The translations under genes were made by a program, and so were the position numbers. The notes below the pieces were generated by a model. That model ran no database searches, was not told where the DNA came from, and was given only the letters and a program-made list of their open reading frames with translations. From Rhodospirillales bacterium (GTDB lineage Bacteria > Pseudomonadota > Alphaproteobacteria > Rhodospirillales > Defluviicoccaceae): a DNA stretch of 64,000 nucleotides. The DNA is taken from assembly GCA_007695045.1 (NCBI GenBank), contig REEP01000067.1, forward strand, positions 1 through 64,000, read 5' to 3'. Positions 31,762-54,438 of this stretch are shown in pieces. How positions within the stretch are numbered: the stretch's first letter is position 1; each line of letters starts with the position of its first letter.

Positions 31762-31784
31762 TTTTCCATAACATGGAAAACCCG

Positions 31785-32056
31785 ATGGCGACGTCGGTCA
31801 AACTCGACGCCGACCTGAAGAGCCGGCTCGACCGGCTGGCAGAAACGCGGTGGCGGTCGGCCCACTGGATAATGCATGAGGCGATTCGCCAGTATGTCGA
31901 GCGCGAGGAAGCGCGGGAGAATTTCCGGCAGAAAGCCCTCCGGTCATGGCAGAAGTACCGAGAAACCGGCCTGCACCTGCCCCTGGAGAAACCGCAGCGT
32001 GGCTGAACACCTGGGGCACCGAAGATGAGACCGCAGTGCCCGGTTGCCGTACGTAA
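31785..32056 (+). pseudogene. frameshifted CopG/RHH-family antitoxin
   Basis: MATSVKLDADLKSRLDRLAE and RSAHWIMHEAIRQYVEREEA form an intact ribbon-helix-helix N-terminus like the antitoxins paired with RelE/ParE toxins. After HLPLE the frame breaks. One base further on the normal C-terminus continues as ETAAWLNTWGTEDETA to a stop at 32056, so one G was lost near 31986 and the current frame ends early at 32006. An in-frame ATG at 31773 adds four residues. No toxin gene follows. Confidence 0.8.
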
Positions 32057-32105
32057 TCATCCCAAGGTCTCCGTTGAACCAATAAGGCTTAGATGCCGCG
32101 TCAAA

Positions 32106-32143
32106 GGGGTTCCCTTTTGCGCGGATATGGACGGCTTTCTAAG
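32106..32143 (+). mobile_element. 38-bp Tn3-family-like terminal inverted repeat
   Basis: A 38-base segment that begins GGGGTTCCC and ends CTTTCTAAG, the length and end bases typical of Tn3-family termini (GGGG...TAAG). The GGGG end is on the left, so the element would extend to the right, where a tnpR-like resolvase remnant begins 56 bases on. A matching opposite copy was not found by eye. Confidence 0.6.
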
Positions 32144-32198
32144 GCCTTGATCCGCAGGGCTCTGGAAAGCGGCAAAAGGGGCGGGCAAAATCGCGGGC

Positions 32199-32512
32199 AT
32201 GCAAATCGGCGATGCCCGCGCCTCCACGGATGAACAATCCCTCGACCTGCAACGCGCCGCGCTCGAAGCGGCCGGGTGCACGGTGGTCTATGAGGATCGG
32301 TGGGTTGCGGGGCCGCCGTGGCGCGTCAGGGCCTCTCTGATGCGCTCTCGCGCCTCGGGGCGGGAATGTGTGTGCTGGTCGTGTGGAAGCTCGACCGTCT
32401 GGGGCGCTCCGTGGCCCAGCTGATCCACCTGATCGACGGGATCGGCAGGGCCGGGGTTGCGGCGCTGCTGGGGGTGGATGTGGCAACGCTACGGCGGGCC
32501 TTAAGCCGATAG
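32199..32512 (+). pseudogene. broken Tn3-type resolvase (serine recombinase)
   Basis: The first frame reads MQIGDARASTDEQSLDLQRA to YEDR, the resolvase N-terminus with catalytic Ser in ARAST, although the usual Tyr of GYARVS is Asp. The frame then shifts by one; the other frame gives SDALSRLGAGMCVLVVWKLDRLGRSVAQLI. After HLIDGIGRAG it jumps directly to a helix-turn-helix end, VAALLGVDVATLRRAL, so about 60-70 residues of the core are deleted. It is non-functional. Confidence 0.85.
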
Positions 32513-32664
32513 TATTGGAGATTGACCTTATGTCAATTTGATGCGTAGAACTATGCAGCACCATCAATAACACAGGACTTTAACCCAGATATGGATAATA
32601 TTTATATTTACAGCGTGACAATAGACGCCGCGACAGGGGGCTTATCGGTATAATACGCGTTGCT

Positions 32665-33113
32665 GTGCAAACATATATCGCGGCACACGTCCGTGAAAAA
32701 AGGCTCAGAAAATCAATCGCTTTATCGTTTTATGGAGAAATAAATGCCATTATTAAATTAGTTCGCAAGAGGAGATATATAGAGGTGCCAGAACCGTTAG
32801 TTGAAATCCCGCCTCATTTATTATTTATAGATCACTTTTACTTCAATGAGAGAGAGTATTTCCAGTTTATGGGAAAAATGTCGATAAGGTTGGCGTTCTC
32901 GCGCCACCGCTCCCAGAGCTTAGTATCGAGTTCTATACACTCGCAAATGGTATTTTAGAAGATATGGATAACTTACCACAACCAGAAAATCAGTCGCGCA
33001 TGAAAGGCGGCACAAAATTAGAAGCTTATAGATGTCTGCTTAACTTATTCAAAAATGCCATGGATATCGGCAACAGAATTCTCATAGAAATAGATAGAAA
33101 GTACAGATATTAA
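32665..33113 (+). pseudogene. AT-rich hypothetical gene with a frameshift
   Basis: Strongly AT-rich against its surroundings, so recently acquired. Frame 1 reads REKRLRKSIALSFYGEINAI and HFYFNEREYFQFMGK. A missing A in the A-run near 32875-32879 shifts it, and frame 2 continues NVDKVGVLAPPLPELSIEFY and LLNLFKNAMDIGNRILIEID to a TAA at 33111. It resembles small hypothetical proteins that normally start with a membrane helix; that start is absent or degraded upstream. Nothing is recognised in 32513-32664. Confidence 0.65.
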
Positions 33114-33123
33114 GGAAACTTTA

Positions 33124-33408
33124 TCATAAAAAATCTGGCCATCTCTGTGCAGCATGCCGCACGCGCAATATTTCCACTCGCTCCCTGATACGATAGACAA
33201 CGATGTATGGCGTATCCGAAACCACCAGCTCGCGGGTGTCTTCTACGCTCCCGACACGGCCAATCTGAGGATAGAACGCCAAGCCGGAAACCTGCTCGAC
33301 AATGCGGCGTATGGTTCTCTCTGCTGCGTGCGGATCATCTTGGGCGATGTATTCGCCGATGTCCTCAAGGTTGTGGCGGGCGCGTTGCGTCCAGACGATC
33401 TCATCCAT
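33124..33408 (-). CDS. ParE/RelE-family toxin
   Basis: 94 residues with the ParE fold pattern: WTQRARHNLEDIGEYIAQDDP, FYPQIGRVGSVEDTRELVV, YIVVYRIRERVEILRVRH. ParE relatives poison gyrase, RelE relatives cleave mRNA; the VEILRVRHAAQRWP end fits ParE better. It overlaps the upstream antitoxin by 8 bases. It appears intact, unlike neighbouring toxin-antitoxin remnants. Confidence 0.85.
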   Translation of the reverse strand: MDEIVWTQRARHNLEDIGEYIAQDDPHAAERTIRRIVEQVSGLAFYPQIGRVGSVEDTRELVVSDTPYIVVYRIRERVEILRVRHAAQRWPDFL

Positions 33409-33583
33409 GCTGGACGTATTTGCGGACGGTCTCTTTCAACTCCGCCGGTGTTGCAAAATCTCCGGCGTCGGCCTCTTTGATGGCTTGCCGCGTTTGCTCG
33501 TCGTGCCATGCCTGCACATCGGCACTCGCTGCCATGGCAACGGGCCGGGTCGCCTGCTCAAGCGTGAGTGATCGCTCTTTCAT
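33401..33583 (-). CDS. antitoxin of the ParDE-like pair
   Basis: A 60-residue small acidic-tailed protein directly upstream of and overlapping the toxin. The C-terminus (GDFATPAELKETVRKY) has the toxin-wrapping character of ParD/RelB-type antitoxins; the N-terminus is short. AAGGATGG lies upstream of the ATG. Antitoxin function is inferred mainly from context. Confidence 0.65.
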   Translation of the reverse strand: MKERSLTLEQATRPVAMAASADVQAWHDEQTRQAIKEADAGDFATPAELKETVRKYVQHG

Positions 33584-35377: not shown

Positions 35378-35648
35378 CGTGTCGGGTCCTCCAGCACATA
35401 CCGGTGATCATCGATCAGATTGCCCGGCCGCTTGTCTTCGGGCAACCAAAGGTGACGTCCCGTCGCCAAAGCTAGTTGTCCAAGGCGCGGACCGCCACCC
35501 CTCCGCGTGATCGCCGGAGCCGAAGCGGCATCGTGGCGGCGGCCCTGTCACAACCATCGTGCGGCTCAGGAAGACGCTTGCACAACCCTTGACTGCAGCC
35601 CATGGGGTAGGCATATGCTCCTAGGTGGTTTGGGACAGGGATTGCGCG
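35378..35648. other. intergenic region upstream of grxC with hairpin
   Basis: No gene is supported. A 7-bp inverted repeat TTGCCCG (35420-35426) / CGGGCAA (35440-35446) is present. The region is a divergent promoter zone for grxC and the terminase-like gene. Confidence 0.4.
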
Positions 35649-36053
35649 ATGGCCAAGCTCGGCGCACGTCAGGAGCGGTTCTGCCGACAGTTCGTCGAGT
35701 GCGCCAACGCGGCGGCGGCGGCCCGCGCGGCCGGCTATTCGGACCGGTCGTCACGTCTGGCGGGCTATCGTTTGCTGCGCATGCCCCGGGTGGCCGAGCG
35801 TATCGCCCAATTGCAGCAGGAGACGGCCCGCAGCCACTGCCGGGACCTGGATGTCCTGCTCGGCAAGCTGGAGGCCGTGTTTCGCCAGTCGTGTGAGGAC
35901 CACCAGTTTCACGTGGCCATCCGGGCGGTGGAACTGCAAGCCAAGCTGGCCGGAATGGCGCCGCCACGGACCCCGCCGGCCCTCCGCTCCCCCCTTCCCA
36001 GGCCCAGCAACGACAACGACAGCAACCACAATGCCAGCAACCACCAAGATTGA
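35649..36053 (+). CDS. terminase small subunit-like protein, isolated
   Basis: 134 residues. The N-terminal half has the phage TerS helix-turn-helix pattern: KLGARQERFCRQFVECANAA, AARAAGYS, GYRLLRMPRVAERIAQL. The C-terminal tail is Asn/Asp/His-rich low complexity. No large subunit or other phage gene adjoins; the nearest TerL is about 7 kb away on the other strand with its own small-subunit gene. It may be a phage remnant or a reused DNA-binding protein. ATG 35649; ATG 35625 in frame is less likely. Confidence 0.7.
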   Translation: MAKLGARQERFCRQFVECANAAAAARAAGYSDRSSRLAGYRLLRMPRVAERIAQLQQETARSHCRDLDVLLGKLEAVFRQSCEDHQFHVAIRAVELQAKLAGMAPPRTPPALRSPLPRPSNDNDSNHNASNHQD

Positions 36054-42638: not shown

Positions 42639-44150
42639 TTAGACGGTGAAGTCGGTATCCGCCCGGAATGCCCCCGCCCCCGGTCGCCATTGCCCCGGCC
42701 GTCCGCCGGTGGCGACGGCGCGCATCCGCGGCAGACGCACCGGTTCCGACAGGAGGCATCCCGCCACCGCATCGAGCCCGTCATCCCGGCCTCTGCCACC
42801 AGGGCGCCAGTCCCGCAGTTCCTCGAGAAACGGCGAGTCCAACACGCTCCGGTGCGCGTACAGCCGACCGGCCGCCAGCACCGCATCGAATGCTTCGACG
42901 ATCCGCAAATGCTTGGCGCGAACCGACACATGCTCGACCACGCTTGCATCGAGCCCGGCCCGCAGCAGCTCGCGCCGCAGCAGCGTGGGCAGGAAACGGC
43001 CGATCCCGTTGGTCTCGACGGTTACCGCGGGCAGATGAAACGCTCTCAGAAACTGAGCCACCTGACGACACAGCTGGGTGGCCTCGTCGACGCTATCGAC
43101 AATGTCCGGATCGTGACGCATGTAGCGCAGCGCATGCAACCAGTAGCAGCCGGTCTCGTCCGAGAACACGGCGGCAAGGACGCTGGCGTCGCCTTTTTCC
43201 GGAAGGCCATAGGACGGGTCCCACCAGCATGATGCCGAGGCCAGGCGTCGGCCCTCCAGCATGAGCCGCGCCGAACCGTTGGCTTCCCTGTACTGCAGGT
43301 CGGCGTCGTAGGGGCGAAGCGCTTCGGCATTGAGCCGGCCGTCGACCAGGTTGCGCGGACGCAGCATCATCTGGCTTTCGAACTTGGCCGGACCGCTGCG
43401 CGCGCGAAGGGCTTCCACCGCTTCGGCAGAAAACCGCTCAGGCCAGTTCGACTGACCGAGGGCATTGATCAGGGGCAGTTCCAGCCGCGAGAATCCATCC
43501 AGGAACGGTCGCTCTTCACCGATCGCCGCATAGGGTTGCGTGCTGTAGATCGAGAAATGGTGGTGGGGTGTGCCGACGTACATCTGCGTTCCACCCGGCA
43601 CCAAAATGAAATCGATCTCGCGCAGGCGTTGGCGCAATTCGATCCGCTTTGCGACCGTGTCGCAGGTGTTGGGGACTTCGACATCGTCGCAAATGACCAC
43701 ATCGGCGCGCAGGCCCGTCACGTTGGCGCCGATGCCCTTGGCCAACATCGACGGATCACGCAATTCCGCCGAGCGCCGGACCGTGAACCGGTCGGAAGCC
43801 CATTGGTCCATCCGCTTCGGCTTGAGGCCGACGGTACAGGGATGGCGTTCGATGATGCGCTTGACGTTGCGGACCATCTTCCCTGCCAAGGCGAAATCGG
43901 CAGCGACCACGAGGATGCGCAGGTTCGGATTACGGAAAAGGAGCCACGCCGAAAACAGCCCGACGAGGCTTGACTTTCCCGAATTCCGGAATGCAAGCAG
44001 GAGAAGATTTGATTGATCCTGGCCCCACTTCCTTTCAAGCCATTCACAAATTTTTATATGAATATGAGGCGTAGCCAAGCCCTGGCCACGATTCCATATC
44101 CAGATGAATTCGGACAAGCCGATGTTGCGAATACGGTTTGTTGTATTCAT
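42639..44150 (-). CDS. phage terminase large subunit (T7 gp19-like)
   Basis: DNA-packaging motor. 503 residues: ATPase with Walker A LLAFRNSGKSSLVG and Walker B ADVVICDDVEV, and a C-terminal RNase H-like nuclease with acidic residues in WWDPSYGLPEKGD, TVETNGIGRFL and DDGLDAVAG. Both domains look complete. The start MNTTNRIRNIG at 44150 overlaps the small-subunit stop by 4 bases. It is the last gene of the minus-strand virion module. Confidence 0.92.
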   Translation of the reverse strand: MNTTNRIRNIGLSEFIWIWNRGQGLATPHIHIKICEWLERKWGQDQSNLLLLAFRNSGKSSLVGLFSAWLLFRNPNLRILVVAADFALAGKMVRNVKRIIERHPCTVGLKPKRMDQWASDRFTVRRSAELRDPSMLAKGIGANVTGLRADVVICDDVEVPNTCDTVAKRIELRQRLREIDFILVPGGTQMYVGTPHHHFSIYSTQPYAAIGEERPFLDGFSRLELPLINALGQSNWPERFSAEAVEALRARSGPAKFESQMMLRPRNLVDGRLNAEALRPYDADLQYREANGSARLMLEGRRLASASCWWDPSYGLPEKGDASVLAAVFSDETGCYWLHALRYMRHDPDIVDSVDEATQLCRQVAQFLRAFHLPAVTVETNGIGRFLPTLLRRELLRAGLDASVVEHVSVRAKHLRIVEAFDAVLAAGRLYAHRSVLDSPFLEELRDWRPGGRGRDDGLDAVAGCLLSEPVRLPRMRAVATGGRPGQWRPGAGAFRADTDFTV

Positions 44151-44524
44151 CGATCCTGTGTCGCAGGGCTTTCCCCGATCGCCGCAATCGCTTCCGCAGC
44201 ACTGGAAATCAGGGCTTCGAGCTCTCTGTCCCTGTCTCCGTCGCCCGGCATCCCCTCGAGGGATTGCGCCAGAAGCAACAATGACTTCAGATGATCCAGT
44301 GAGGCCCGGCACGCCGCCTGGTAGGTTGCGACCGCCTTGGGATCGTTCGCTACATCGAGGTGCACGGCGGCATCATAGGCGGCAAGGGCACGGTCGATCA
44401 GCACCGGCAGGCGGCTGACTACGGTCTCCGTCGCCGCCGATACCGTCCCCGATCGCGCCGCTTCGGACGCGGGACTCGGCGATGCCGCGTCCTGAAGCAC
44501 GCCCTGGTTGGGTGATCGTGTCAT
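44147..44524 (-). CDS. probable terminase small subunit of the T7-like module
   Basis: 125 residues, mostly helical, with an Ala-rich core (PVLIDRALAAYDAAVHLDVA, LDHLKSLLLLAQSLEG). No strong motif. Assignment rests on position immediately before and overlapping TerL, as gp18 is in T7, and on its size. Unrelated to the isolated TerS-like gene at 35.6 kb. Confidence 0.55.
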   Translation of the reverse strand: MTRSPNQGVLQDAASPSPASEAARSGTVSAATETVVSRLPVLIDRALAAYDAAVHLDVANDPKAVATYQAACRASLDHLKSLLLLAQSLEGMPGDGDRDRELEALISSAAEAIAAIGESPATQDR

Positions 44525-44557
44525 TGAATGCCCCTTTGCCCTGGATGAATCCGATCG

Positions 44558-44809
44558 TCACGAACTGCGCCAGCGGGACACCGGCGCAGATGGCGGCCCG
44601 GTCGTCTCGATCCGGTTCTCGATGCGGATCAGCCGTTCGTTCAACGGGCGCAAGGCTTCTGCCAGATCGCTCTTTGTGACGCTGTTCATGGCCGAGAAAT
44701 ACTGCCGATCGTCGAGCTTTCTCAGCCAGTATACAATGCCGCCAAAAATAACCCCGATGAGAGGCACCACGACAAGTCCGAAAAACTGCCACAGTTCGGC
44801 TGTGAACAT
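44558..44809 (-). CDS. holin- or spanin-like single-helix membrane protein
   Basis: 83 residues: one N-terminal transmembrane helix (FFGLVVVPLIGVIFGGIVYWL, about 9-29), then a charged coiled-coil-like tail (LAEALRPLNERLIRIENRIE). The position between tail-fibre and TerS genes equals that of the T7 class II holin gene 17.5. A membrane role in particle release is inferred. Confidence 0.55.
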   Translation of the reverse strand: MFTAELWQFFGLVVVPLIGVIFGGIVYWLRKLDDRQYFSAMNSVTKSDLAEALRPLNERLIRIENRIETTGPPSAPVSRWRSS

Positions 44810-44894
44810 CGAGGATCTCCCTGGGCCGGAAGCACGCGTTTCTTGTTGTCAGACGGCCGCCGAGTGCTTCGTCAGCCAGGCTGCAGTGACGACA

Positions 44895-45071
44895 TCAGAA
44901 GCCTTTGTCGTCCCGTGGCCGGATCTGCGGCCAGACATTGTTACGTGAGCCCGTGCTCCAGGTCGGGAGACTCCCGACCCCGGCGCTCCCGCCGCCACCG
45001 ACGGGATCGAACAGCGGCCGCTCCCCTTCGTCAGACCAAGACTCTCGATACTTCGATTCGTTCCGCCACAA
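44895..45071 (-). CDS. short hypothetical ORF in the phage module
   Basis: Up to 58 residues from TTG 45071 (WRNESKYRESWSDEGERPLF, Gly-rich middle, SLPTWSTGSRNNVWPQIRP). It might be a small virion protein or a leftover of the distal tail fibre. No clear ribosome site. It fills the only gap over 300 bases (44810-45147) in the module. Confidence 0.3.
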   Translation of the reverse strand: MWRNESKYRESWSDEGERPLFDPVGGGGSAGVGSLPTWSTGSRNNVWPQIRPRDDKGF

Positions 45072-45147
45072 GCGGGCCCCGGCCCGGCCCTCCAACCGGC
45101 GCGGCGTCCCCCGACCGCACCGCGGGCGGCCCCGGGCCGACCGCCAG

Positions 45148-45654
45148 TCAGGTGCCCGGAGGGGTTCCAACTTCGGACGGCGGCAACACGGCAAGGTTGC
45201 CGTCCACGTCAAAGCCGAGCAGGCAACCGGCCCGGACTGCGCGCGCCGGAAGCTGCAGCAATGCTGCGGCGTCCGTCGGCGACAGGCGGATACTTCGCGC
45301 CAGCCCGGCCGCCAGTTCCTGCATTGCCGCGGTGAGATAATCTAACTCATCGTTGAGTACTCGTGCCGACAGCATTCCCGATTCCTGGAAATCCGATGTC
45401 CGCTGAAGCGACAGCATACGGATGAGCGTGATGATGGTCCCGTTCGCCGGCGCCTGGTCAAACGCGACATGACCACCGGCACTGTTGCCCACCCCATGAA
45501 TCGAATAGCCAGACCACAGACGCTCGCTATCGGCGAACACAGCGAGATCAGAGTCTGTGAATATTGGAAAAGTAAACACGAAAACATTGGTGGTGCCATC
45601 CGCGTGGTATTGGAGACGCGGCAGAATGTCACCGATCTTGATGTGGTTGCTCAC
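45148..45654 (-). CDS. short tail-fibre protein (T7 gp17 N-terminal-like)
   Basis: 168 residues. The region RLQYHADGTTNVFVFTFPIF, then AGGHVAFDQAPANGTIITLIR and LNDELDYLTAAMQELA matches the N-terminal domain that ties podoviral tail fibres to the tail tube. T7 fibres continue for about 400 more residues; here the protein stops soon after this domain. GTG 45654 has GGGAGG upstream. Confidence 0.75.
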   Translation of the reverse strand: MSNHIKIGDILPRLQYHADGTTNVFVFTFPIFTDSDLAVFADSERLWSGYSIHGVGNSAGGHVAFDQAPANGTIITLIRMLSLQRTSDFQESGMLSARVLNDELDYLTAAMQELAAGLARSIRLSPTDAAALLQLPARAVRAGCLLGFDVDGNLAVLPPSEVGTPPGT

Positions 45655-45683
45655 CGGATCCTCCCGAAATATTGAAGGCGTTT

Positions 45684-46133
45684 TCAGAATTCCAGCAGCG
45701 GAATACGGCGGATCCCGCGTTCCGCCAAGGCGAAGGCGCCGCGCCTCAGGCTGCTTGAGGTCTCCAACAGGTTACGCCGCCGCAGCCAGGCAGCGTCGTC
45801 AAGCACGCGACCGGCGCGCAACTGAGCCAGGTCGCGCGCATCGGCGGCCTCCTGTCGGGCTTCGGCGGCAAGACCGGCGAGCACCGATCGCGCCGAACCA
45901 TCGAGCGCCACGCCGGCGGCCGCGAACCGTGCCCGCTGCCGGGCCAGCGCCTGCGCCAGGCGCTGCTGGCGCTCGCGATCGCGGACGCGTTCCGTTTCGC
46001 GGATCAGGGCGACCTCGTGGCGGGCTTGCGCGTCGCGCGCCGCCCCCGACGCCTTGGCAAGCCGCTTGCGCTCGCGCACCTGAAGGCCGAGTTGGGCGGC
46101 GCCAAGCGCCGCGACCGGCAGAAAACCACCCAT
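45684..46133 (-). CDS. internal virion-like protein
   Basis: 149 residues, strongly helical and rich in Ala, Arg and Gln: AALGAAQLGLQVRERKRLAK, RQRARFAAAGVALDGSARSV. This pattern is seen in podoviral internal virion proteins (gp14-like). ATG 46133 (MGGFLPVAALG) was chosen; the upstream frame is not similar. It is small, and no counterparts of T7 gp15 and gp16 follow. Confidence 0.6.
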   Translation of the reverse strand: MGGFLPVAALGAAQLGLQVRERKRLAKASGAARDAQARHEVALIRETERVRDRERQQRLAQALARQRARFAAAGVALDGSARSVLAGLAAEARQEAADARDLAQLRAGRVLDDAAWLRRRNLLETSSSLRRGAFALAERGIRRIPLLEF

Positions 46134-46239
46134 GTTCGTTGCCTCCGTCTCATTGCACTGGATCGATGTTTCCGGGTTCGTCCTGTGGTTCCCATGGCGC
46201 CGGGTCGCAGCCCGGGAAGGCCCCCCGCGACCGGGAGCG

Positions 46240-48150
46240 TCACTCACCGGTGATGCCCTCGGTCGCGACGGACAGAAGCGTAAACCGGCCGGGCGTTGCC
46301 TGCGTGATGGACCAGTGCGGCCGGTCACGACCGCATCCCCAGCCCAGAATGCGGACGGTCATCTCGCCGGAGAACGATGGCGGGGACGGGCCGAACGTGT
46401 CCCGGCCGAAGCGGCGGAACGGCAGCGCCCGAACGCCCGTGCCCACGTCCACGTGCAGCGCCGATGTCTCGTGCAGGCGAAACCGCACGGCGACCGGGCG
46501 GTGGACCCGACAAGACCCACTGGCGCCGTCACCGGGGCCGGCCATCGGCATCGGCGTGATGACATGGGTGTAGGGCAGACCGGCCTGGAGATGGTGGGCG
46601 GGCTCGGCCAGTGTGATGGCGCCGGCGGCCACCCAGGCATCCGGTCGAACCGAACCGTCAGCCACCACCGCCACCGTCCGCCCCTCGAGGTGACCGAGAC
46701 CAGACCAGAGCGCCTGCGCCGTGCCCGCCTCCTGAAAAACGGCCGCGTCCAGCGCCAGGCGGTCATCGAACGCTTCCAGATGCACCTGTCCGGCACGGGC
46801 AACCAGAGCGTAAACCTGATCGCCGACAACGGCCACGGCGAGGAACTGGCCGTCGGTCTGCTGCAGACTCCAGGCGGCAACGGATTCGACACGATAGACC
46901 GTCAGCGTGCCGACCGTGCCGTTGCCCATCACCACATGGAGCAGCCGGCGCTGGTGGTCGTAGTCCATGTCCACCGGCCGATCCACAAGGTGCGCCGAGG
47001 CGAGCGCAAGGTCGGGCGACTGATAAGCTTGCTCCACGTCGGCATAGAGGAATTCCCGGACCTGGCCATCGTGTCGGGGGATGAAAATGGTTGCCCCGTC
47101 CACCATCACCGGCGCCACGGTCCGATCCGCCGGGGAGCCGACGCGTGTCTGGCGATGGACCTGTATCCGCGCCGGCGAGAGCGGGCTGCCCGTCACCATC
47201 CATTCGGCCCCGGTGGTGAAGACCTGAAGATGACGGCCCGACACCACCGCGCGGATGCTGTTGTTCTCATCCGACAACAGCGGGAAGTCGATGGCCTGAT
47301 CGTCCAGACCCTCGCCGAGATCGAAATCGAACGGGGCACCGGTCCGCGACAGCCACAGGCGGTTCGGCAAGGCACGGGAACCGCCGAAGACGAGCCGATC
47401 CTGATGTAGCGTGATGGCAACCGGCCATCCGCGCACTGCCGAAAAGGCCTGCTCCGTCCAGTCGCGGGTCGACGCCGTGTCCACCAGCGCCTCGCGGATC
47501 ATCGCCGTCGCCCCGGTCGGGCTCTGGACCGACAGGATTTCCACCTCGCGGTCGCGAAGGCGCCATCGGGTGCCGACATGCGCCGTCTGGAACACGGCGT
47601 CGGATGCGGTCAAGGTTATCGTGGCACCGGCCGCGGTGCCGCTGGCCGACAGCGTCACCGCCGCATCGGCGAACTTGTGATGCGGCTGCCGGATGCGGCC
47701 CGCTTCGGTGGCACGGAACCGCAGTGGCTGGAGGTGCCAGTCCTCGCCGTCGCCGCAACCGACCTGTTGCGGCGCCACGTCCGGGTGCACGATCAGGACG
47801 GTGTCCGCGGTCTGGGTGTAGTTGATGTGGCGCAGCTGTTCGTCCGTCCACGGTGTCGCCAAGCCGGCAACCGGGGCACCCTGGCGGTAGACGGCCAGAT
47901 GCCGGTCCGTCAGCACCAGCAAACACGCCGGGGTCGTGGTCATCGCCATCGCGATCAGACGCCCGCCGCCGGCGACGGTATCCACGTGACGCAGCCCGGG
48001 ACGCCGGGAGAGCCCCCCGCCCGGATGAATGATGACGTTGCGAAGACGCGCCGCACCCTGCGCGTAGACGCGCAGATCAGTCCGGGCGCCGAGCCTGGGA
48101 TCCAGTTCGCCTCCGGCGAAGCTGGTCTGGGTGGTGCAAAAGCGTGGCAT
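46240..48150 (-). CDS. tail tubular protein B-like (T7 gp12 nozzle)
   Basis: 636 residues. The N-terminus FAGGELDPRLGARTDLRVYA...LRNVIIHPGGGLSRRPGLRHV is the signature of podoviral tail nozzle proteins, followed by beta-rich repeats (RLVFGGSRALPNRLWLS, SDENNSIRAVVSGRHLQVFT). T7 gp12 has about 790 residues, so this is shorter. The start ATG 48150 overlaps the gp11-like stop by 1 base. Confidence 0.87.
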   Translation of the reverse strand: MPRFCTTQTSFAGGELDPRLGARTDLRVYAQGAARLRNVIIHPGGGLSRRPGLRHVDTVAGGGRLIAMAMTTTPACLLVLTDRHLAVYRQGAPVAGLATPWTDEQLRHINYTQTADTVLIVHPDVAPQQVGCGDGEDWHLQPLRFRATEAGRIRQPHHKFADAAVTLSASGTAAGATITLTASDAVFQTAHVGTRWRLRDREVEILSVQSPTGATAMIREALVDTASTRDWTEQAFSAVRGWPVAITLHQDRLVFGGSRALPNRLWLSRTGAPFDFDLGEGLDDQAIDFPLLSDENNSIRAVVSGRHLQVFTTGAEWMVTGSPLSPARIQVHRQTRVGSPADRTVAPVMVDGATIFIPRHDGQVREFLYADVEQAYQSPDLALASAHLVDRPVDMDYDHQRRLLHVVMGNGTVGTLTVYRVESVAAWSLQQTDGQFLAVAVVGDQVYALVARAGQVHLEAFDDRLALDAAVFQEAGTAQALWSGLGHLEGRTVAVVADGSVRPDAWVAAGAITLAEPAHHLQAGLPYTHVITPMPMAGPGDGASGSCRVHRPVAVRFRLHETSALHVDVGTGVRALPFRRFGRDTFGPSPPSFSGEMTVRILGWGCGRDRPHWSITQATPGRFTLLSVATEGITGE

Positions 48151-48719
48151 CAACCGCGCACCTCGATCAGAACGAAGTTCTCGATCCGTGGCGGCGTATC
48201 CTCCTGGGCGTCGGCCAGCCTGGCCCGACGCAACTCCTCCTCGGCAGCCCGGCTGAGGTTGATCCACCGCGCCGTGCTCTCGGTCAACGGAATGCAAAAC
48301 TCTGCCGCCAAGCGCGCGATCAGGGCCAACTGGAAGAAGACGGGGAAACCGGCTTCGTCCACCTTGCACAGATACGTCAGAACAACGGCGTCGGAATTCG
48401 TATAAAGCATCTGTCCTTGAATGCGATAGGTCAGGCCGCGGCCTCGGTCCGGTCGGCCGCTGGAGATGACGCGAAGACAATCCGACGGCAAGGCGAACGC
48501 ATGGGCAAAGTCCGCGACCGGCGGTGACGTCAGTTTCGCCAATCGCTCTTGTTTAATGGCGAAATTCCAGGGGTGTATCGACAGCAGAGCGTCGCGCACC
48601 ACCGGGTACAGGGACGCCGCTACCTGGGCTTCGACGGAGCCTTCGTCAAACGAACTGATCGGGTGGGCCCCGATTTTTACCAGCGCCCGTGCACACAACT
48701 GAAAGGCGGTCACTGCCAC
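48150..48719 (-). CDS. tail tubular protein A-like (T7 gp11 adaptor)
   Basis: 189 residues, the usual size for gp11. Conserved features: CARALVKIGAHPISSFDEGS, YPVVRDALLSIHPWNFA, FALPSDCLRV and YLCKVDEAGFPVFFQLALIA. It connects portal to nozzle. GTG 48719 is the start, with GGAG upstream. Confidence 0.9.
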   Translation of the reverse strand: MAVTAFQLCARALVKIGAHPISSFDEGSVEAQVAASLYPVVRDALLSIHPWNFAIKQERLAKLTSPPVADFAHAFALPSDCLRVISSGRPDRGRGLTYRIQGQMLYTNSDAVVLTYLCKVDEAGFPVFFQLALIARLAAEFCIPLTESTARWINLSRAAEEELRRARLADAQEDTPPRIENFVLIEVRG

Positions 48720-48875
48720 CGCAAATTCTCCATGTCACCACTCGCAAGAGGAGAGGGCAATTCCATCGGTCGAGCCGTGGTCAGATGCGCGCTTGGGCCT
48801 TCCCGGGCGCGGCTCGCCCGGGAAGGCGGCTCGCCATGGCCGGCGCGCCACGACGGCCAAAACGCGCCGGACCGG

Positions 48876-49145
48876 TCAGTCGGTGTCGGTGGCGCCAAGC
48901 GGTGTCAAATCCGATACGTTGACCGCACCCGCGGAATTGGAGCGGACCACGAAGACGCCGGCGTCCGGCGTGGCCGCCGTATTGACGTTGGCGAGGATCA
49001 TGTCGCCGACACGGAACATGTCGGCGGCGGCATTGAAGTAGCCCGTCGTGTCCACGGTCGTGGCCGGATCGGGCGTGCTGTAGTGCCACAGCGTAAAACC
49101 GTTGGCATAAGCGAGCACGCTCAAATTGCGTGAATTATAAGCCAT
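48876..49145 (-). CDS. small virion-module hypothetical protein
   Basis: 89 residues beginning MAYNSRNLSVLAYANGFTLW, with beta-rich DMFRVGDMILANVN. Similar small proteins follow capsid genes in podovirus-like prophages; a decoration or head-completion role is possible but unproven. It is 14 bases after the capsid gene. Confidence 0.7.
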   Translation of the reverse strand: MAYNSRNLSVLAYANGFTLWHYSTPDPATTVDTTGYFNAAADMFRVGDMILANVNTAATPDAGVFVVRSNSAGAVNVSDLTPLGATDTD

Positions 49146-49159
49146 GTAATGGACCCTCC

Positions 49160-49978
49160 TTAATTCTCGAGGCAGACAATCGGGATGATACCGTTCGTAT
49201 CAATCAGACAGGCACCCTGACTCATCATATTATTGATGAAATGCGCGGCTCGGTCCCCATGCCATGTAATATCCGTCTTCACGTCCGACCCGATGGCATG
49301 GCCGATCGCTGTCTTGTGATACCAGAAACACAGACGCGTACCCTCCGTTGTCTTGGGAAGGCCGGAATGGGGGAACCACACCGTACCGAGCCACTGCTTG
49401 GCCTGGGTTCCTTTCCACGGCAGCTGATCATCGCCAATGTAATCAGCATTGGCGAACTCCTGGATCGTGAGCAACTGGCTCCATTGTTTCCAACCGACAA
49501 CGGCGAAACGCTGTCCGTCGTCCGGAACGTCGTTCTCTCCAAGCGTCTCGAATGCCGCCAGGACCTTGTCGCGGGTGATACCTTCGGTACAAGTCGTCGT
49601 CGTCGCAGCCCCGACCAGTTGATCGATGATCAGATCGTCGGTCTTTCGGCCCAACGCGTAGGCACCCGCCTTGGCAACCACCTGCTGCTCATTGATATTG
49701 GTCTTGAGCTCATCCAGACGGTCCACCCAGTCACCGGCATAAAAGTCCTGCAAAACACATTCAACCGAGTCGTGATCGACATTCATCACGGGGACTTTTC
49801 CGTGACGCGCCTTGGTGCCGGCAACCCCTCGGCCGACCTTCTGGAAGGTCGTCGTCGATCCGACGACATTCTGTTTGGTCCGAACGGTATTCCTCAGCTT
49901 TGATCCCATCTGCTGATACTGTATGTGGACTTCAGCCTCGAAATTCTTGATAAAAGACTGCTCAACGTGCGTTGACAT
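49160..49978 (-). CDS. major capsid protein
   Basis: 272 residues: HVEQSFIKNFEAEVHIQYQQ, KARHGKVPVMNVDHDSVECV, YAGDWVDRLDELKTNINEQQ, RFAVVGWKQWSQLL. This is the HK97-fold capsid of podovirus-like prophages. The gene is more AT-rich than its neighbours. ATG 49978. Confidence 0.85.
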   Translation of the reverse strand: MSTHVEQSFIKNFEAEVHIQYQQMGSKLRNTVRTKQNVVGSTTTFQKVGRGVAGTKARHGKVPVMNVDHDSVECVLQDFYAGDWVDRLDELKTNINEQQVVAKAGAYALGRKTDDLIIDQLVGAATTTTCTEGITRDKVLAAFETLGENDVPDDGQRFAVVGWKQWSQLLTIQEFANADYIGDDQLPWKGTQAKQWLGTVWFPHSGLPKTTEGTRLCFWYHKTAIGHAIGSDVKTDITWHGDRAAHFINNMMSQGACLIDTNGIIPIVCLEN

Positions 49979-50221
49979 GCACGGCTCTCCTGTCGTCAAG
50001 GTGTCTGATCTGTGTCTTGATTACTTGTCGGGTCCGGTCGCAACATGACCGCTCGGCTGTCGTTGACGTCTGAAACCCCGGTCCGACCGGCGCCGGCTCA
50101 CTTATTTTTCTCGGCTGCAGACGAACTCTTGCATTCTAATTATTCGATAGCTCAAACTGGTCGAGCAGCAAAGTGCTGGATGATGTACTATTTTCTTATT
50201 GAATATTGACCAGCCTGGAGA
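49979..50221. other. AT-rich gap between scaffold and capsid genes
   Basis: 243 bases without a gene, with markedly AT-rich stretches (near 50100-50210). A capsid-specific promoter is plausible; no clear -35/-10 pair was chosen. Confidence 0.4.
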
Positions 50222-51001
50222 TCACTCAGGATATAACGCCTGGAACCCCTGACGGACTTTTTCGACGATGTCCGGATCCTGATCGCGCCAATAACGAGGG
50301 TCCCGCATCAGGGTTCGCAGGGCGCCTTCGGTCATGGCTCCGGCACTGGTGACGCCGTCCTTCACCAAAGCCGGTTCGTTCTTGACCATCATCTGATGCA
50401 TCGTCGTTACTCCTTCGAAGCTCGTGCCAAGGACGTCGAACACTGGTTTCGGCAGGTTGGACCGGCCCCAAGCGGCAATCTGGCGGGACATCTCGTGCCA
50501 GCGGTCGGCACCGCCGAAGTGACGATGAAGTCGCTCCACCTGGTTCTCGGCATCGGAAACAGCAACCAGGTCAGAGACAAGAGGCGCCAGTCGTTCTTCT
50601 GCCAACTCATAGACAAGCTGCGCCTGCTGATTGGTGAAGCCGGCCTCGTGGAGTCGCGCATTGATCGTCTGAATTTCTGGGTCGTCCCGGAACAAATCGC
50701 TTTTGATTTCTAATTCATAATCGTTTGGAGACTGAGGAACGTCGGCATTGCGGCCGGCAACCACCTGTTGCTCCAATTCCAAATACGATTTCAGGAAATC
50801 CTCTGTGCGAACATGGCCTTTCTCGGCGTCCCAGAACTTCTCGGGCAGCCCATCGGGCCGTGGCGGCCGGACCGCTGTGCGCTGAGACGACTCTCCGGCA
50901 GCGATGTCGCCGACGGCATCGGCATTGCCGTCATCGCTGCACTCGGTCTCGTTCGCGACGACAGCGCCGCGATCTTCCCAATCCTGTGGCTCATCCGGCA
51001 T
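50222..51001 (-). CDS. capsid assembly scaffolding protein
   Basis: 259 residues, acidic, with RPDGLPEKFWDAEKGHVRTE and FLKSYLELEQQV, the signature of T7 gp9-like scaffold proteins. The C-terminal helix ends the protein. ATG 51001 (MPDEPQDWE). It overlaps the Bbp19-like gene by 11 bases. Confidence 0.8.
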   Translation of the reverse strand: MPDEPQDWEDRGAVVANETECSDDGNADAVGDIAAGESSQRTAVRPPRPDGLPEKFWDAEKGHVRTEDFLKSYLELEQQVVAGRNADVPQSPNDYELEIKSDLFRDDPEIQTINARLHEAGFTNQQAQLVYELAEERLAPLVSDLVAVSDAENQVERLHRHFGGADRWHEMSRQIAAWGRSNLPKPVFDVLGTSFEGVTTMHQMMVKNEPALVKDGVTSAGAMTEGALRTLMRDPRYWRDQDPDIVEKVRQGFQALYPE

Positions 51002-51359
51002 TGTCTTCGTCGTCCTCCTGTTCAAAAAAACCGCCGGGCCGTGTCGCCCGGACGCCGTCGACGGGGCGGCCGGCGCCACGGTCCACCAGTCTTGCGATGT
51101 GATGGATCAATTGCCGCTGGCCCTCGAGATACCGAAGAGCCGCATCCGAAACGTCCGGCCCCAGCACCCGGTCCACCGTGAGGCCCCGGAGATGGCGCCA
51201 AACGCGTCGGCCGTCGCGCGACTGGAAGCACCGGGCAAAGGCGAGGGCGAGATCCTGGTCGTGCCGCGTGTCGCTGCGGTCCGTCGCTCCGTTGCCGCGG
51301 GCAGCGGACGCGCGTTCCGGCGCGTCGAGCCAGTCCCATCCGGTATCAGGCCCCGGCAT
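50991..51359 (-). CDS. Bbp19-family phage protein
   Basis: 122 residues. The core ALAFARCFQSRDGRRVWRHL and EGQRQLIHHIARLV matches the small Bbp19-like family found beside portal genes in podoviruses; function unknown. ATG 51359 overlaps the portal stop; the downstream end overlaps the scaffold start. Confidence 0.8.
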   Translation of the reverse strand: MPGPDTGWDWLDAPERASAARGNGATDRSDTRHDQDLALAFARCFQSRDGRRVWRHLRGLTVDRVLGPDVSDAALRYLEGQRQLIHHIARLVDRGAGRPVDGVRATRPGGFFEQEDDEDNAG

Positions 51360-52968
51360 CGATGCTGTCTCCCAGGTACACGGCGACGTCCGCAGGCTCC
51401 GGCGTCCAAGTAAGCCGCCCATCGGTCATCGAGACCGTTCCGTCATCGCCGCTGCGCGGTGCGGCGGCGTCCGAGCCGGCGCCTGTGCCGAGCGCCACGC
51501 CCGTCGCGGGCAACCGCTCGCCGCGCATCAGCACGTCCGGAACCCCCAGGATTTGCCCGAGCCAGCGGGTGGCGGCCGCCTGGTCCACCACGGCCATGGC
51601 CTCCGGTCCCAACTCGCGCGTGAACGTGAGCCAGAGCATGGTGTTCTGAGCCTCCTGTTGCGCCTGGAAGCGGGTCTGCAGGGCCCGACAGCGGACATCG
51701 ACCAGCCGGCCGTCCAGGGGCAGGTCGGCAATCTCGCCACGCCGGACCAGGATGGCGTAGGCGCGAGCCAGCAACGGTCTCAGCAACTCCGTCTGCAGCC
51801 GTGCAAAGGTGGCCCCGAAGATCCGTGCCACTTCTGCGGCGCGTTCGAGCACCTCCGTCGCCGTCATGCGCGGGCCGTGCAACTCGCCCAACTGATCCAC
51901 CAGCAACGCCCGTCGGATGCGCGCGCGCAGCTGCTCCAGCACCAGTTCCGACACGTCGAACCGGCCGGGTGCGGAAAGCGGCGTCAAACCGGAGGAGCCC
52001 ACCGCTTTCGGGATGATGCTGCCCGGTACCAGCTTGACCGTCGCCGGATTGAGCACGCCGTCGTCATCCGCCTGCCAGATCCCGGTTGCCGCGATGGACG
52101 CGTTCTTGAGCACCAGTTCCACGACCTTGTTGGCCGTCTTGATGTCAGGCAGCGCCTTCATCACCGGCGACCGGCCGTAGGTCTCGCCGGGCGCCTTGAG
52201 CCAGCGGAAATTGATGAACGGCGCCGTTTGAAACACGCCTTCGGCAAGGGTCAGCGGCTCGGCCGCTCTCGCCGCCGCCTCGATGAAGGCGACATAGCGA
52301 TACGCAGCGCCCTCCGGGATTACCGCCTCCACCACCGGGATGCGCCCGTCCGTCATGGCATCGGCGCAGCCCTCGAGTGTTTGGCGCGAGGCGGCCCCGG
52401 GGAAGCGTTCGCCGACCTGCCGCGACGACAATGCCGACACCCGAAAGGTCGTGTCGGCGCGACCGCTGCCGCTGTCTTCGATCACCACCTGGGACAGCGG
52501 CACCGCCGCAAAGTGGAACGCCGAAGCACTGCCCGGCGCGGCTTCCTCGAACGCCAGCGAGGCGGTGCCCGCCGTCACCACATCAAGCAGGCATTGATGG
52601 ACCTCGAGAGCAAAGTTGGAACGGTCGAAATGCGTCAGCATGACACGGGATGCGCGATCCAGATGCGCCGCCAGGTCGCGTCGTGCATCCGGATCGACGT
52701 CACAACCGGGCACCAGCGCGAACCACGCCGTCTGCGGCGGCATCAACTGACTGAACAGGCTGGCGGCGAGCTGCTCGATGGCGTCCGGTGCGGTCGCGTC
52801 GAACAGACGGTCACCCCGTGTCTCGGCCCGCGGTTCCGCCCCGGCAACGTTCGCGCGCAACGGCAAGGCGAAGTCATAGCAGTCCTGCCACACACGCTCC
52901 CAGCATGCCCGACCCTCGCGGGCTCGCCGGTATCGCTCTTGGACGCTGCGGGTCGGGCTGGCCGGCAT
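51346..52968 (-). CDS. portal (head-tail connector) protein, T7 gp8-like
   Basis: 540 residues, close to T7 gp8 (536). Landmarks: SVQERYRRAREGRACWERVW, LFDATAPDAIEQLAASLFSQ, FINFRWLKAPGETYGRSP, MTATEVLERAAEVARIFG. ATG 52968 is preceded by GTGAGG. A GTG at 53124 in the same frame lies inside the candidate promoter and is rejected. First gene downstream of that promoter. Confidence 0.9.
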   Translation of the reverse strand: MPASPTRSVQERYRRAREGRACWERVWQDCYDFALPLRANVAGAEPRAETRGDRLFDATAPDAIEQLAASLFSQLMPPQTAWFALVPGCDVDPDARRDLAAHLDRASRVMLTHFDRSNFALEVHQCLLDVVTAGTASLAFEEAAPGSASAFHFAAVPLSQVVIEDSGSGRADTTFRVSALSSRQVGERFPGAASRQTLEGCADAMTDGRIPVVEAVIPEGAAYRYVAFIEAAARAAEPLTLAEGVFQTAPFINFRWLKAPGETYGRSPVMKALPDIKTANKVVELVLKNASIAATGIWQADDDGVLNPATVKLVPGSIIPKAVGSSGLTPLSAPGRFDVSELVLEQLRARIRRALLVDQLGELHGPRMTATEVLERAAEVARIFGATFARLQTELLRPLLARAYAILVRRGEIADLPLDGRLVDVRCRALQTRFQAQQEAQNTMLWLTFTRELGPEAMAVVDQAAATRWLGQILGVPDVLMRGERLPATGVALGTGAGSDAAAPRSGDDGTVSMTDGRLTWTPEPADVAVYLGDSIDAGA

Positions 52969-53106
52969 GGGTACCTCACCTGTTGGCATCGCGCCGGTCC
53001 GGCTGGTGGCGGCCGGCGGGACCGCCGGCCGGCCGAACACGCTCGCATCGGATCCCGGCTCTTCGGTGCGAACCAAGGCGTCTGGCGGCACCGACTGTGT
53101 GTCCCT

Positions 53107-53135
53107 GGTATATAGGATTTTCACCCTAATGTCAA
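53107..53135 (-). promoter_or_regulatory. promoter of the virion module
   Basis: On the minus strand perfect TTGACA (53135-53130), 17 bases, then TATACC (53112-53107), embedded in AT-rich DNA and overlapping the end of the upstream gene. It would give a leader of about 130 bases before the portal start. It is a host sigma70-type pattern, not a T7 RNA polymerase promoter. Confidence 0.6.
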
Positions 53136-53515
53136 CAACAACCCTGGCGCGCGTCGGATAGATGGCGGAACAATTGCCAGGGCGTCAGCACCCAGCGCGC
53201 CTGGACCCCGAGGCACCGTTTCACGACCTCGACACACGTAAACGGCGCCAGCGGAGCGCACCGCGCCGGGGCGCGTCGAACCCGGGTTTCGATCATGTGG
53301 CAGCCTTGCGCGCGATAGCCTCGGAGGATATCAACGGCCCCGACGTCGTGGACAATCATCGTATCGATTTGATGGGAAAGGGGATCGACCAAAATCCACC
53401 CCGATGGCGTTTCCAGAAAAACGAAGCAATGCCGAAATCCTCTCTTCAACAGCCGCAGGCACGGGAGTGTGGTTGTATCGGCAAAACCGACGATGGCCCG
53501 TGTGCTGACAGACAT
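53132..53515 (-). CDS. phage-module protein with possible permuted papain-like fold
   Basis: 127 residues from ATG 53515. A His-containing strand FRHCFVFLETPSGWILVDPLS precedes a helix with Cys, FTCVEVVKRCLGV, the His-before-Cys order seen in permuted NlpC/P60 (YiiX/LRAT-like) hydrolases. The end VLTPWQLFRHLS is typical of proteins beside podoviral portal genes. Enzyme activity is a guess; gene reality is fairly secure. Start ATG 53533 is an alternative. Confidence 0.6.
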   Translation of the reverse strand: MSVSTRAIVGFADTTTLPCLRLLKRGFRHCFVFLETPSGWILVDPLSHQIDTMIVHDVGAVDILRGYRAQGCHMIETRVRRAPARCAPLAPFTCVEVVKRCLGVQARWVLTPWQLFRHLSDARQGCC

Positions 53516-53802
53516 GACCGCCGACCCCGTCATTGAGACGCTTCATCACGAGGACAGTGCCGGCCACCGCGCAAACCTCTCTGCAACGGCCGTGTCCCGC
53601 CCTCGCCAAGCGCGGCGGCACGGACAACGCGCCGCACCTCAACGTGCCTCAACCGCGACCGGGAGGCGTGATCCCCGCTTGGCTGAAGCACTTTGCCCGC
53701 CATGCCTCAACTGCAAGTTGCCTCCCGAGATGGCGCTGTCAAGCCCGCGTCTCTGCCTATTTTCCTAATGCAATCCGCGGCGACATCTAAGACACTGTTC
53801 CC
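53516..53802. other. divergent intergenic region between virion module and repressor
   Basis: 287 bases, no gene supported. It contains CAACT-GCA-AGTTG (53708-53720), a candidate operator, and an AT-rich patch just before the repressor start. Confidence 0.4.
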
Positions 53803-54438
53803 ATGTTTGGACATGCTGACATTTGGCGGGCGATCGATCGGCTGGCGGAGGCGCACGGCCTGTCGGCATCCGGCCTCGCCCGGCGCGCGGGGCTCGACCC
53901 CACCACCTTCAACAAGAGCAAACGCATCACCCGGGAAGGCAAAGCCCGCTGGCCGAGTACCGAAAGCGTCTCCAAGGTTCTGGACGCAACCGGCGCGTCG
54001 ATGGGGGAACTCATTGCCTACATGTCGGACGAGGCGGTGCCGCCTGCGGGCCTGCGGACGTTTCCGGTGATCGGCATGGCGCAGGCGGGTCGCGAAGGCT
54101 TTTTCGACGACGCCGGCTATCCCAGCGGGGCCGGCTGGGACGACATACCCTTCCCGGATGTGGGCGATCCCCACGCCTACGCGCTGGAGATCAGCGGCAG
54201 CAGCATGGAGCCCGTTTACAGGGACGGCGACGTCATTATCGTGTCACCGCAAGCCACCCTGCGGCGGGGAGATCGCGTGGTCCTGAAAACCCGGGATGGC
54301 GAGGTCATGGCCAAGGTCTTGCGTCGCCGGTCGGCACGAAAATACGAACTGCAGTCGGTAAATGTCGAACATGACGACCGCTCGATCCCGATCGACGAGG
54401 TGGAGTGGGCCGCCCGAATCGTTTGGGCAAGCCAGTAA
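53803..54438 (+). CDS. XRE-type repressor with S24 (LexA/CI-like) peptidase domain
   Basis: 211 residues. N-terminal HTH (RAIDRLAEAHGLSASGLARR...TTFNKSKR) and C-terminal S24 domain with Ser in ISGSSMEPVYRDGD and Lys in GEVMAKVLRR; self-cleavage may occur at the Ala-Gly of MAQAGREGFF. Very similar proteins occur as chromosomal genes across Alphaproteobacteria, so it need not be a phage repressor, but it is divergent from the virion module. Confidence 0.9.
   Translation: MFGHADIWRAIDRLAEAHGLSASGLARRAGLDPTTFNKSKRITREGKARWPSTESVSKVLDATGASMGELIAYMSDEAVPPAGLRTFPVIGMAQAGREGFFDDAGYPSGAGWDDIPFPDVGDPHAYALEISGSSMEPVYRDGDVIIVSPQATLRRGDRVVLKTRDGEVMAKVLRRRSARKYELQSVNVEHDDRSIPIDEVEWAARIVWASQ

Follow-up and report, generated by a model that had tools for sequence, protein, structure and literature searches.

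What is a compact set of T7-like virion and packaging genes, in which a preliminary description saw no replication or integration genes, doing in the chromosome of a Rhodospirillales bacterium? That description, made on the same DNA (the window, that is, the whole stretch of 64 kb analysed here), had proposed a domesticated, GTA-like particle and left a decaying prophage as the alternative. Known gene transfer agents (GTAs) occur in few lineages and are almost all siphovirus-like.

Gene content of the module

The virion and packaging genes of T7 run in the order portal, scaffold, capsid, tail A, tail B, internal protein, fibre, holin, TerS and TerL. Thirteen open genes of the window, all on the minus strand between 42639 and 53533, follow this order (127-aa protein, portal, Bbp19, scaffold, capsid, 89-aa protein, tail A, tail B, internal virion protein, fibre, holin, TerS, TerL). 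The single strand, the near-T7 order and the unbroken reading frames described previously were thus confirmed at the coordinates given here. Most gene extents were also retained, except that the starts of the capsid, portal and TerL genes were corrected.

Family matches, all on the minus strand, were strong for the portal or head–tail connector protein (51346..52968, start inferred at about 52968; PF12236, E 4e-118), the scaffold of the T7 capsid assembly type (50222..51001; PF05396, 4e-20), the 272-aa major capsid protein (49160..49978, with the corrected start at 49978; PF19821, 3e-83; PDB 9eg4, 1.6e-31), tail tubular protein B (46240..48150, start inferred, with the start codon at the tail A stop; phrog_376, 6e-127) and a T7-type TerL (42639..44150, start at about 44150; phrog_38, 7e-77; T7 maturase B, PDB 4bij, 1e-19). 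The Bbp19-like protein (50991..51359; PF25181, 4e-14) and tail tubular protein A (48150..48719; phrog_394, 9e-48) were also assigned. Only weak matches were found for the 149-aa internal virion protein (45684..46133; phrog_418, 4e-4) and for the 125-aa TerS candidate (44147..44524; phrog_31793, 4e-6, a family of unknown function), which occupies the T7 position and adjoins TerL. The 89-aa conserved protein (48876..49145; phrog_18004, 2e-24) is present in 91 loci and is probably virion-associated. The holin-like small protein of 83 aa (44558..44809) was assigned by position, size and an N-terminal hydrophobic stretch only, and it is 90% identical to its counterpart in G001, a genome of the same genus.

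The earlier gene list held for the genes that it named, apart from the fibre discussed below, and a conserved 127-aa protein had to be added to the unit (53132..53515, minus strand; the longest ORF has 133 aa and starts at 53533). H35 and C100 (133-aa numbering) are invariant in an alignment of 16 sequences. The AF2 model (hyp133) reached a pLDDT of 88.8 and gave no significant fold match against the PDB. The function is unassigned; given the invariant His and Cys, it is perhaps a cysteine hydrolase.

As described before, 42.6–54.4 kb contains no recognisable gene for a polymerase, primase, integrase or lysozyme, and the module does not qualify as a T7-like phage, since no RNA polymerase or replication gene was found there or among the module genes of relatives. 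A Terminase_2 small-subunit-like gene at 35625–36053 (plus strand), near a glutaredoxin gene, was excluded as unlinked to the module. Elsewhere in the window, a low-G+C patch at 31773–33583 with a CopG-like antitoxin, a resolvase fragment and a ParE-like toxin (identified by eye) was taken as a small mobile-element scar. The Rfam search of the window returned tRNAs only.

Repressor, operators and promoter

A CI/LexA-like repressor of 211 aa, with a helix-turn-helix and an S24 peptidase, is encoded divergently at 53803..54438 (plus strand; PF00717, 3e-22; phrog_4, 4e-26). It had been taken for part of a purely housekeeping flank, a view that cannot be maintained: the gene belongs to the module, which it adjoins divergently in about 50 loci. 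The A95-G96 cleavage site and the S134/K171 dyad are conserved (A in 40/42 sequences, G in 39/42, S in 38/42 and K in 39/42).

The spacer between the divergent genes contains TAGGAA-N4-TTCCTA, in most cases 35 nt away from the start of the repressor, and a TTGAC-like −35 box comes after it. The operator-like site of the window (53749..53770, minus strand; PWM score 19.5) has an intact left half and a degenerate right half. Across homologous intergenic regions, the left half was found in 47 of 49 (shuffle mean 16, maximum 23) and both halves in 35 of 49 loci (shuffle mean 1.2, maximum 5). Shuffling was mononucleotide and the loci are related to one another, so the counts do not represent independent events. 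A −35-like box lies downstream of the operator in 43/49 loci, mostly 20–25 nt from the operator start; for the window's module promoter it is TTGACA (53737..53742, minus strand), with a poor −10. A second operator-like site, TAGGGTGAAAATCCTA, was located upstream of the portal gene (53110..53131, minus strand; PWM score 20.6). The top two matches in a PWM scan of the 64 kb both fall in the module, and the best one, before the portal, was outside the training set.

From the cleavable repressor and its operators, RecA-dependent induction is inferred as the expected trigger. Close S24 homologues also occur in genomes in which no capsid was found, so the repressor may have other targets.

A different element was observed in front of the capsid gene of relatives, a two-helix RNA-like motif, GG-C-[hairpin]-AYAA-CC, 50–90 nt before the capsid start (e.g., L043:10562-10635 and L063:10473-10546). 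With at least 10 bp, it was present in 19 of 46 anchor-bearing loci (shuffle mean 0.46, maximum 5), always with a linker of one C, and 18 of the 20 strict matches in 2.58 Mb precede a capsid gene. In the window copy, the motif is missing and the capsid leader shows no excess folding; therefore, the motif is not claimed for the window.

Recurrence across genomes

The capsid gene was found in 84/150 related genomes (74/116 of high quality), usually as one copy, and the portal in 97/150, some of these being distant phage-type matches. TerL was found in 73/150, and none of its matches contained the internal stop codon that would have spoken for decay. In a class-wide draw of 385 genomes, about 58 carried a capsid at 55% identity or more, below which identity fell sharply to the phage-like copies at 33% or less; in the set of 150 relatives, the corresponding step was from 49% to 39%. 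Named carriers include Defluviicoccus, Azospirillum, Niveispirillum, Skermanella, Oleisolibacter, Magnetovibrio, Roseospira, Ferrovibrio, Arboricoccus, Pacificispira, Falsiroseomonas and Micavibrio relatives. Recurrence in dozens of genomes puts the gene set beyond chance.

The fullest sets read S24 (divergent)-c12-hyp127-c15-portal-Bbp19-scaffold-capsid-g89-tailA-tailB-ivp-fibre-TerS-TerL-holin-SleB-like hydrolase. No replication or integration genes were recognised in complete sets of relatives, and module genes are missing or degraded in some genomes (G066, G068, G080, G028). ComEC was present in 15 of 16 carriers tested. Homologues confined to full-length phages, which would have refuted domestication, were not the rule: the 80 IMG/VR matches retrieved are pieces of 4–37 kb, the longer of which carry the module's gene set. 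No report of this element was found in the literature (subscription papers and most preprints were outside the search).

The locus itself is shared as well. A copy at the same position in a related genome had been proposed as a check of domestication, and G001 provides it, with the surroundings TAXI-tsaE-APH-NTPtr-addB in common with the window. The module of G005 lies near tadA-C26-rluB in the opposite orientation, and pyrD and/or DUF952 adjoin the module in Azospirillum, Oleisolibacter, Niveispirillum, Aerophototrophica, Pacificispira and UR115. Several genomes have host-type genes inserted between module blocks, two (L034, L044) show a permuted gene order, and in the complete genomes G139 and G106 the repressor–portal block and the capsid–TerL block are about 1.4 Mb apart. 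The features of a functional prophage are not met: no integrase was recognised and the loci are common to genera (att sites were not systematically covered).

A GGDEF/EAL c-di-GMP gene was observed between scaffold and capsid in many loci of Azospirillum (L094:6695-9082 and 13 others), and this insertion is possibly a host link to regulation.

Possible trimming of the window copy

The fibre gene of the window (45148..45654, minus strand; phrog_1640, 2e-24 over residues 12–123) encodes only 168 aa, corresponding to the N-terminal tail-attachment domain (the adaptor), while homologues elsewhere are mostly 390–820 aa long. On another short contig, beside IS21-like genes, lies an ORF of 1287 aa that shares this N-terminal domain (46%; L307:541-4404, G000 contig C4); it is a candidate fibre in trans for the window's module. 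In the window's family, the fibre is a stub or missing and lysis genes vary. The window's cluster contains neither c12 nor the SleB-like hydrolase, and c12 was not found in G000. The single Hydrolase_2 gene of G000 is located elsewhere, is probably housekeeping and was not taken as a module hydrolase. With a fibre stub, no c12 or linked hydrolase and a poor −10, the window copy could be losing delivery. It may be a trimmed, still selected version and not the best model for delivery.

Descent and selection

In the capsid tree, the chromosomal copies form one clade (SH-aLRT 97), outside which fall Hodr, HTVC010P and the phage-like copies of G001 and G112. The tree recovers most host families, with weak deep nodes. 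The two phage-like copies (L049 in G001:C3 and L050 in G112:C5; capsid 37% and 32%) are distant relatives that stand beside a domesticated copy in the same genomes. A 5 kb faecal record labelled "Bacteriophage sp." (L151, MT838907.1) was placed inside the chromosomal clade next to G319 and may therefore be this element from a gut alphaproteobacterium.

Mantel correlations with RpoB distances were 0.54 for the capsid, 0.45 for tail B, 0.68 for TerL and 0.45 for the portal, the last with 45 of 2000 permutations as high; once two divergent genomes were omitted, r was 0.57–0.68 (0/2000 permutations). The median divergence was 0.29 for the capsid vs. 0.22 for RpoB. Values of dN/dS were mostly 0.02–0.4, highest in bbp19 and with one outlying TerL pair at 0.64; dS was saturated in several pairs. 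For the window's own genes, the dN/dS check suggested earlier gave about 0.03–0.42 where computable. The ATPase and nuclease residues of TerL are at least 97% conserved over 75 sequences. On the evidence of these comparisons, the module copies follow the RpoB phylogeny, are under purifying selection and are inherited with the host chromosome.

Retention extends to very small genomes. Nearly the whole set is kept in genomes of 1.1–1.2 Mb (G238, G439, G516) and most of it in genomes of 0.9 Mb. In one 0.9 Mb genus (L285, L286 and L287 in G216, G335 and G505), TerL is encoded as separate ATPase and nuclease genes, which flank the host dnaB and two further genes in antisense orientation. Each half is an open reading frame with its catalytic motifs retained, and both are conserved, at 69–83% identity between species, although synonymous sites are near saturation. 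The ATPase half of L288 (G428) ends at the same place as in these genomes, and a nuclease half was not found in G428.

Explanation and alternatives

As much of the Rhodospirillales side retains the module and inherits it with the chromosome, it is probably a tamed virus with which cells package DNA. We consider it likely that a podovirus was domesticated once, became fixed and has been mostly vertically inherited across much of the Rhodospirillales-side Alphaproteobacteria, where it most likely serves as a GTA. With somewhat less assurance, it is proposed to represent one more GTA lineage of independent origin, and in Proteobacteria the first that is podoviral, with early exaptation, co-diversification down to 0.9 Mb genomes, a dedicated RecA-cleavable repressor and DNA exchange via short-tailed particles in orders lacking RcGTA. 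Under this model, the S24 repressor would silence the module via its TAGGAA-N4-TTCCTA operators until DNA damage activates RecA and the repressor cleaves itself. Procapsids would then be made, host DNA loaded by TerS/TerL and short tails and fibres added; holin and hydrolase would lyse the cell, and recipient cells would take up and recombine the DNA. The gene set, its single origin, co-inheritance and selection, the motor residues, the linked repressor, operator and promoter, and the dispersed loci are read directly from genome data. RecA induction, random packaging of host DNA, lysis and delivery are inferred; experimental evidence for particles, packaged DNA or transfer is lacking.

All the proteins resemble those of phages, regions of this kind are catalogued as viral contigs in IMG/VR, the same hosts contain true phage-like relatives (G001:C3, G112:C5) and some copies are degraded, as would suit an ordinary prophage, one in decay, or related podoviruses that integrated repeatedly and independently. 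This origin is nonetheless very improbable, because the copies form one clade apart from phages, are congruent with RpoB and evolve under purifying selection, share flanks across genera and, in complete sets, have no recognised replication or integration genes. Moreover, their blocks are separated by host genes or by 1.4 Mb, and retention is near complete in genomes of 1.1–1.2 Mb. The decay envisaged in the preliminary description is also disfavoured by the recurrence, the same-locus copy and the lack of TerL stops; its suggestion of a domesticated, GTA-like system is favoured by the recurrence, the shared loci and the low dN/dS, with random packaging of host DNA still an inference.

It is harder to set aside, though still unlikely, that the particle was domesticated for a use other than DNA transfer, for instance as a bacteriocin of podovirus type, for delivering proteins or for programmed lysis. 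The fibre stub in the window's family, the variable lysis genes and the failure to recognise large T7-type internal ejection proteins would agree with such a role, but capsid, scaffold, portal and a TerL with both catalytic centres are conserved, and these head and packaging genes would be unnecessary for a tail-only killer or a lysis device. Least plausible of all is a phage satellite with its own capsids that hijacks a helper phage for mobility. Its small size, own capsid and terminase, and CI-like repressor would fit, whereas neither integrase nor primase was recognised and a single, vertically inherited copy sits at shared loci.

Relation to known gene transfer agents and phages

GTAs have been defined by caudoviricete-derived structural proteins, a fully endogenised genome, often at several loci, vertical inheritance with host co-diversification, no or incomplete packaging of their own genome (head size), mostly random packaging of host DNA, and delivery to cells (PMC9662315). 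Three of these six features are met, namely the structural proteins, full endogenisation and vertical inheritance with co-diversification. Since packaging and delivery need experiments, the module is not filed as a proven GTA. As for head size, blocks 1.4 Mb apart cannot all fit one head, while one-locus genomes might. The closest solved capsid, PDB 9eg4, has 7 chains, from which T=7 is inferred; such a head might hold the whole 11–18 kb unit, so the argument from a small GTA head is unavailable.

RcGTA (Rhodogtaviriformidae, type I) is siphovirus-like. The module resembles it as a domesticated structural cluster of tailed-phage origin, vertically inherited in Alphaproteobacteria at several loci, but it is podoviral: portal, scaffold, tail tubes and terminase are all of the T7 type. 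Membership of the RcGTA-like group is not met, as the window's proteins match T7/podovirus families (without a direct comparison with RcGTA proteins). No RcGTA-like clusters were counted in Azospirillales, Rhodospirillales and Acetobacterales (PMC6821227), so the distributions of RcGTA and the module are complementary. Azospirillum lipoferum-type strains have been reported to release particles with about 10 kb of random host DNA, which that study ascribed to another region, one organised like RcGTA (PMC3899980). Tailed phages were likewise exapted independently for packaging host DNA in BaGTA (Bartogtaviriformidae) and BhGTA/VSH-1 (Brachygtaviriformidae), but in other lineages (PMC9662315) and with a much narrower host range.

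The only podovirus-like GTA report found in the literature is FpGTA of Faecalibacterium prausnitzii (PMC12946183, 2026), claimed as the first of its kind and experimentally supported, with about 10 kb of structural genes, a second locus, and particles containing host DNA fragments of 8.4–8.9 kb. It shares the podovirus-like type with the module and differs in belonging to a Firmicutes genus and in its experimental support; no sequence comparison was made. The novelty previously expected of a podoviral GTA thus stands for Alphaproteobacteria and not in general: the module would be the first podovirus-like GTA in that class, a type with a single earlier report among all bacteria.

Among phages, the Pelagibacter podoviruses EXVC031P Hodr and HTVC010P have a homologous capsid (48% and 28%, respectively), a homologous portal (32% and 30%) and a similar structural gene order, but are complete phages of 34–35 kb outside the chromosomal clade. 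Coliphage T7 shares the gene order and a related TerL; in contrast to T7, neither RNA polymerase and replication genes nor large gp15/gp16-like ejection proteins were recognised in the module.

Implications

If the proposed explanation is true, phage domestication for DNA exchange arose independently with another virion type, and the module would close the gap that RcGTA leaves in Rhodospirillales, Azospirillales and Micavibrio relatives. Many of the proviruses predicted in IMG/VR may then be non-viral. The proposal is testable in culturable genera such as Azospirillum, and the retention of the module in genomes of about 1 Mb bears on why GTAs persist.
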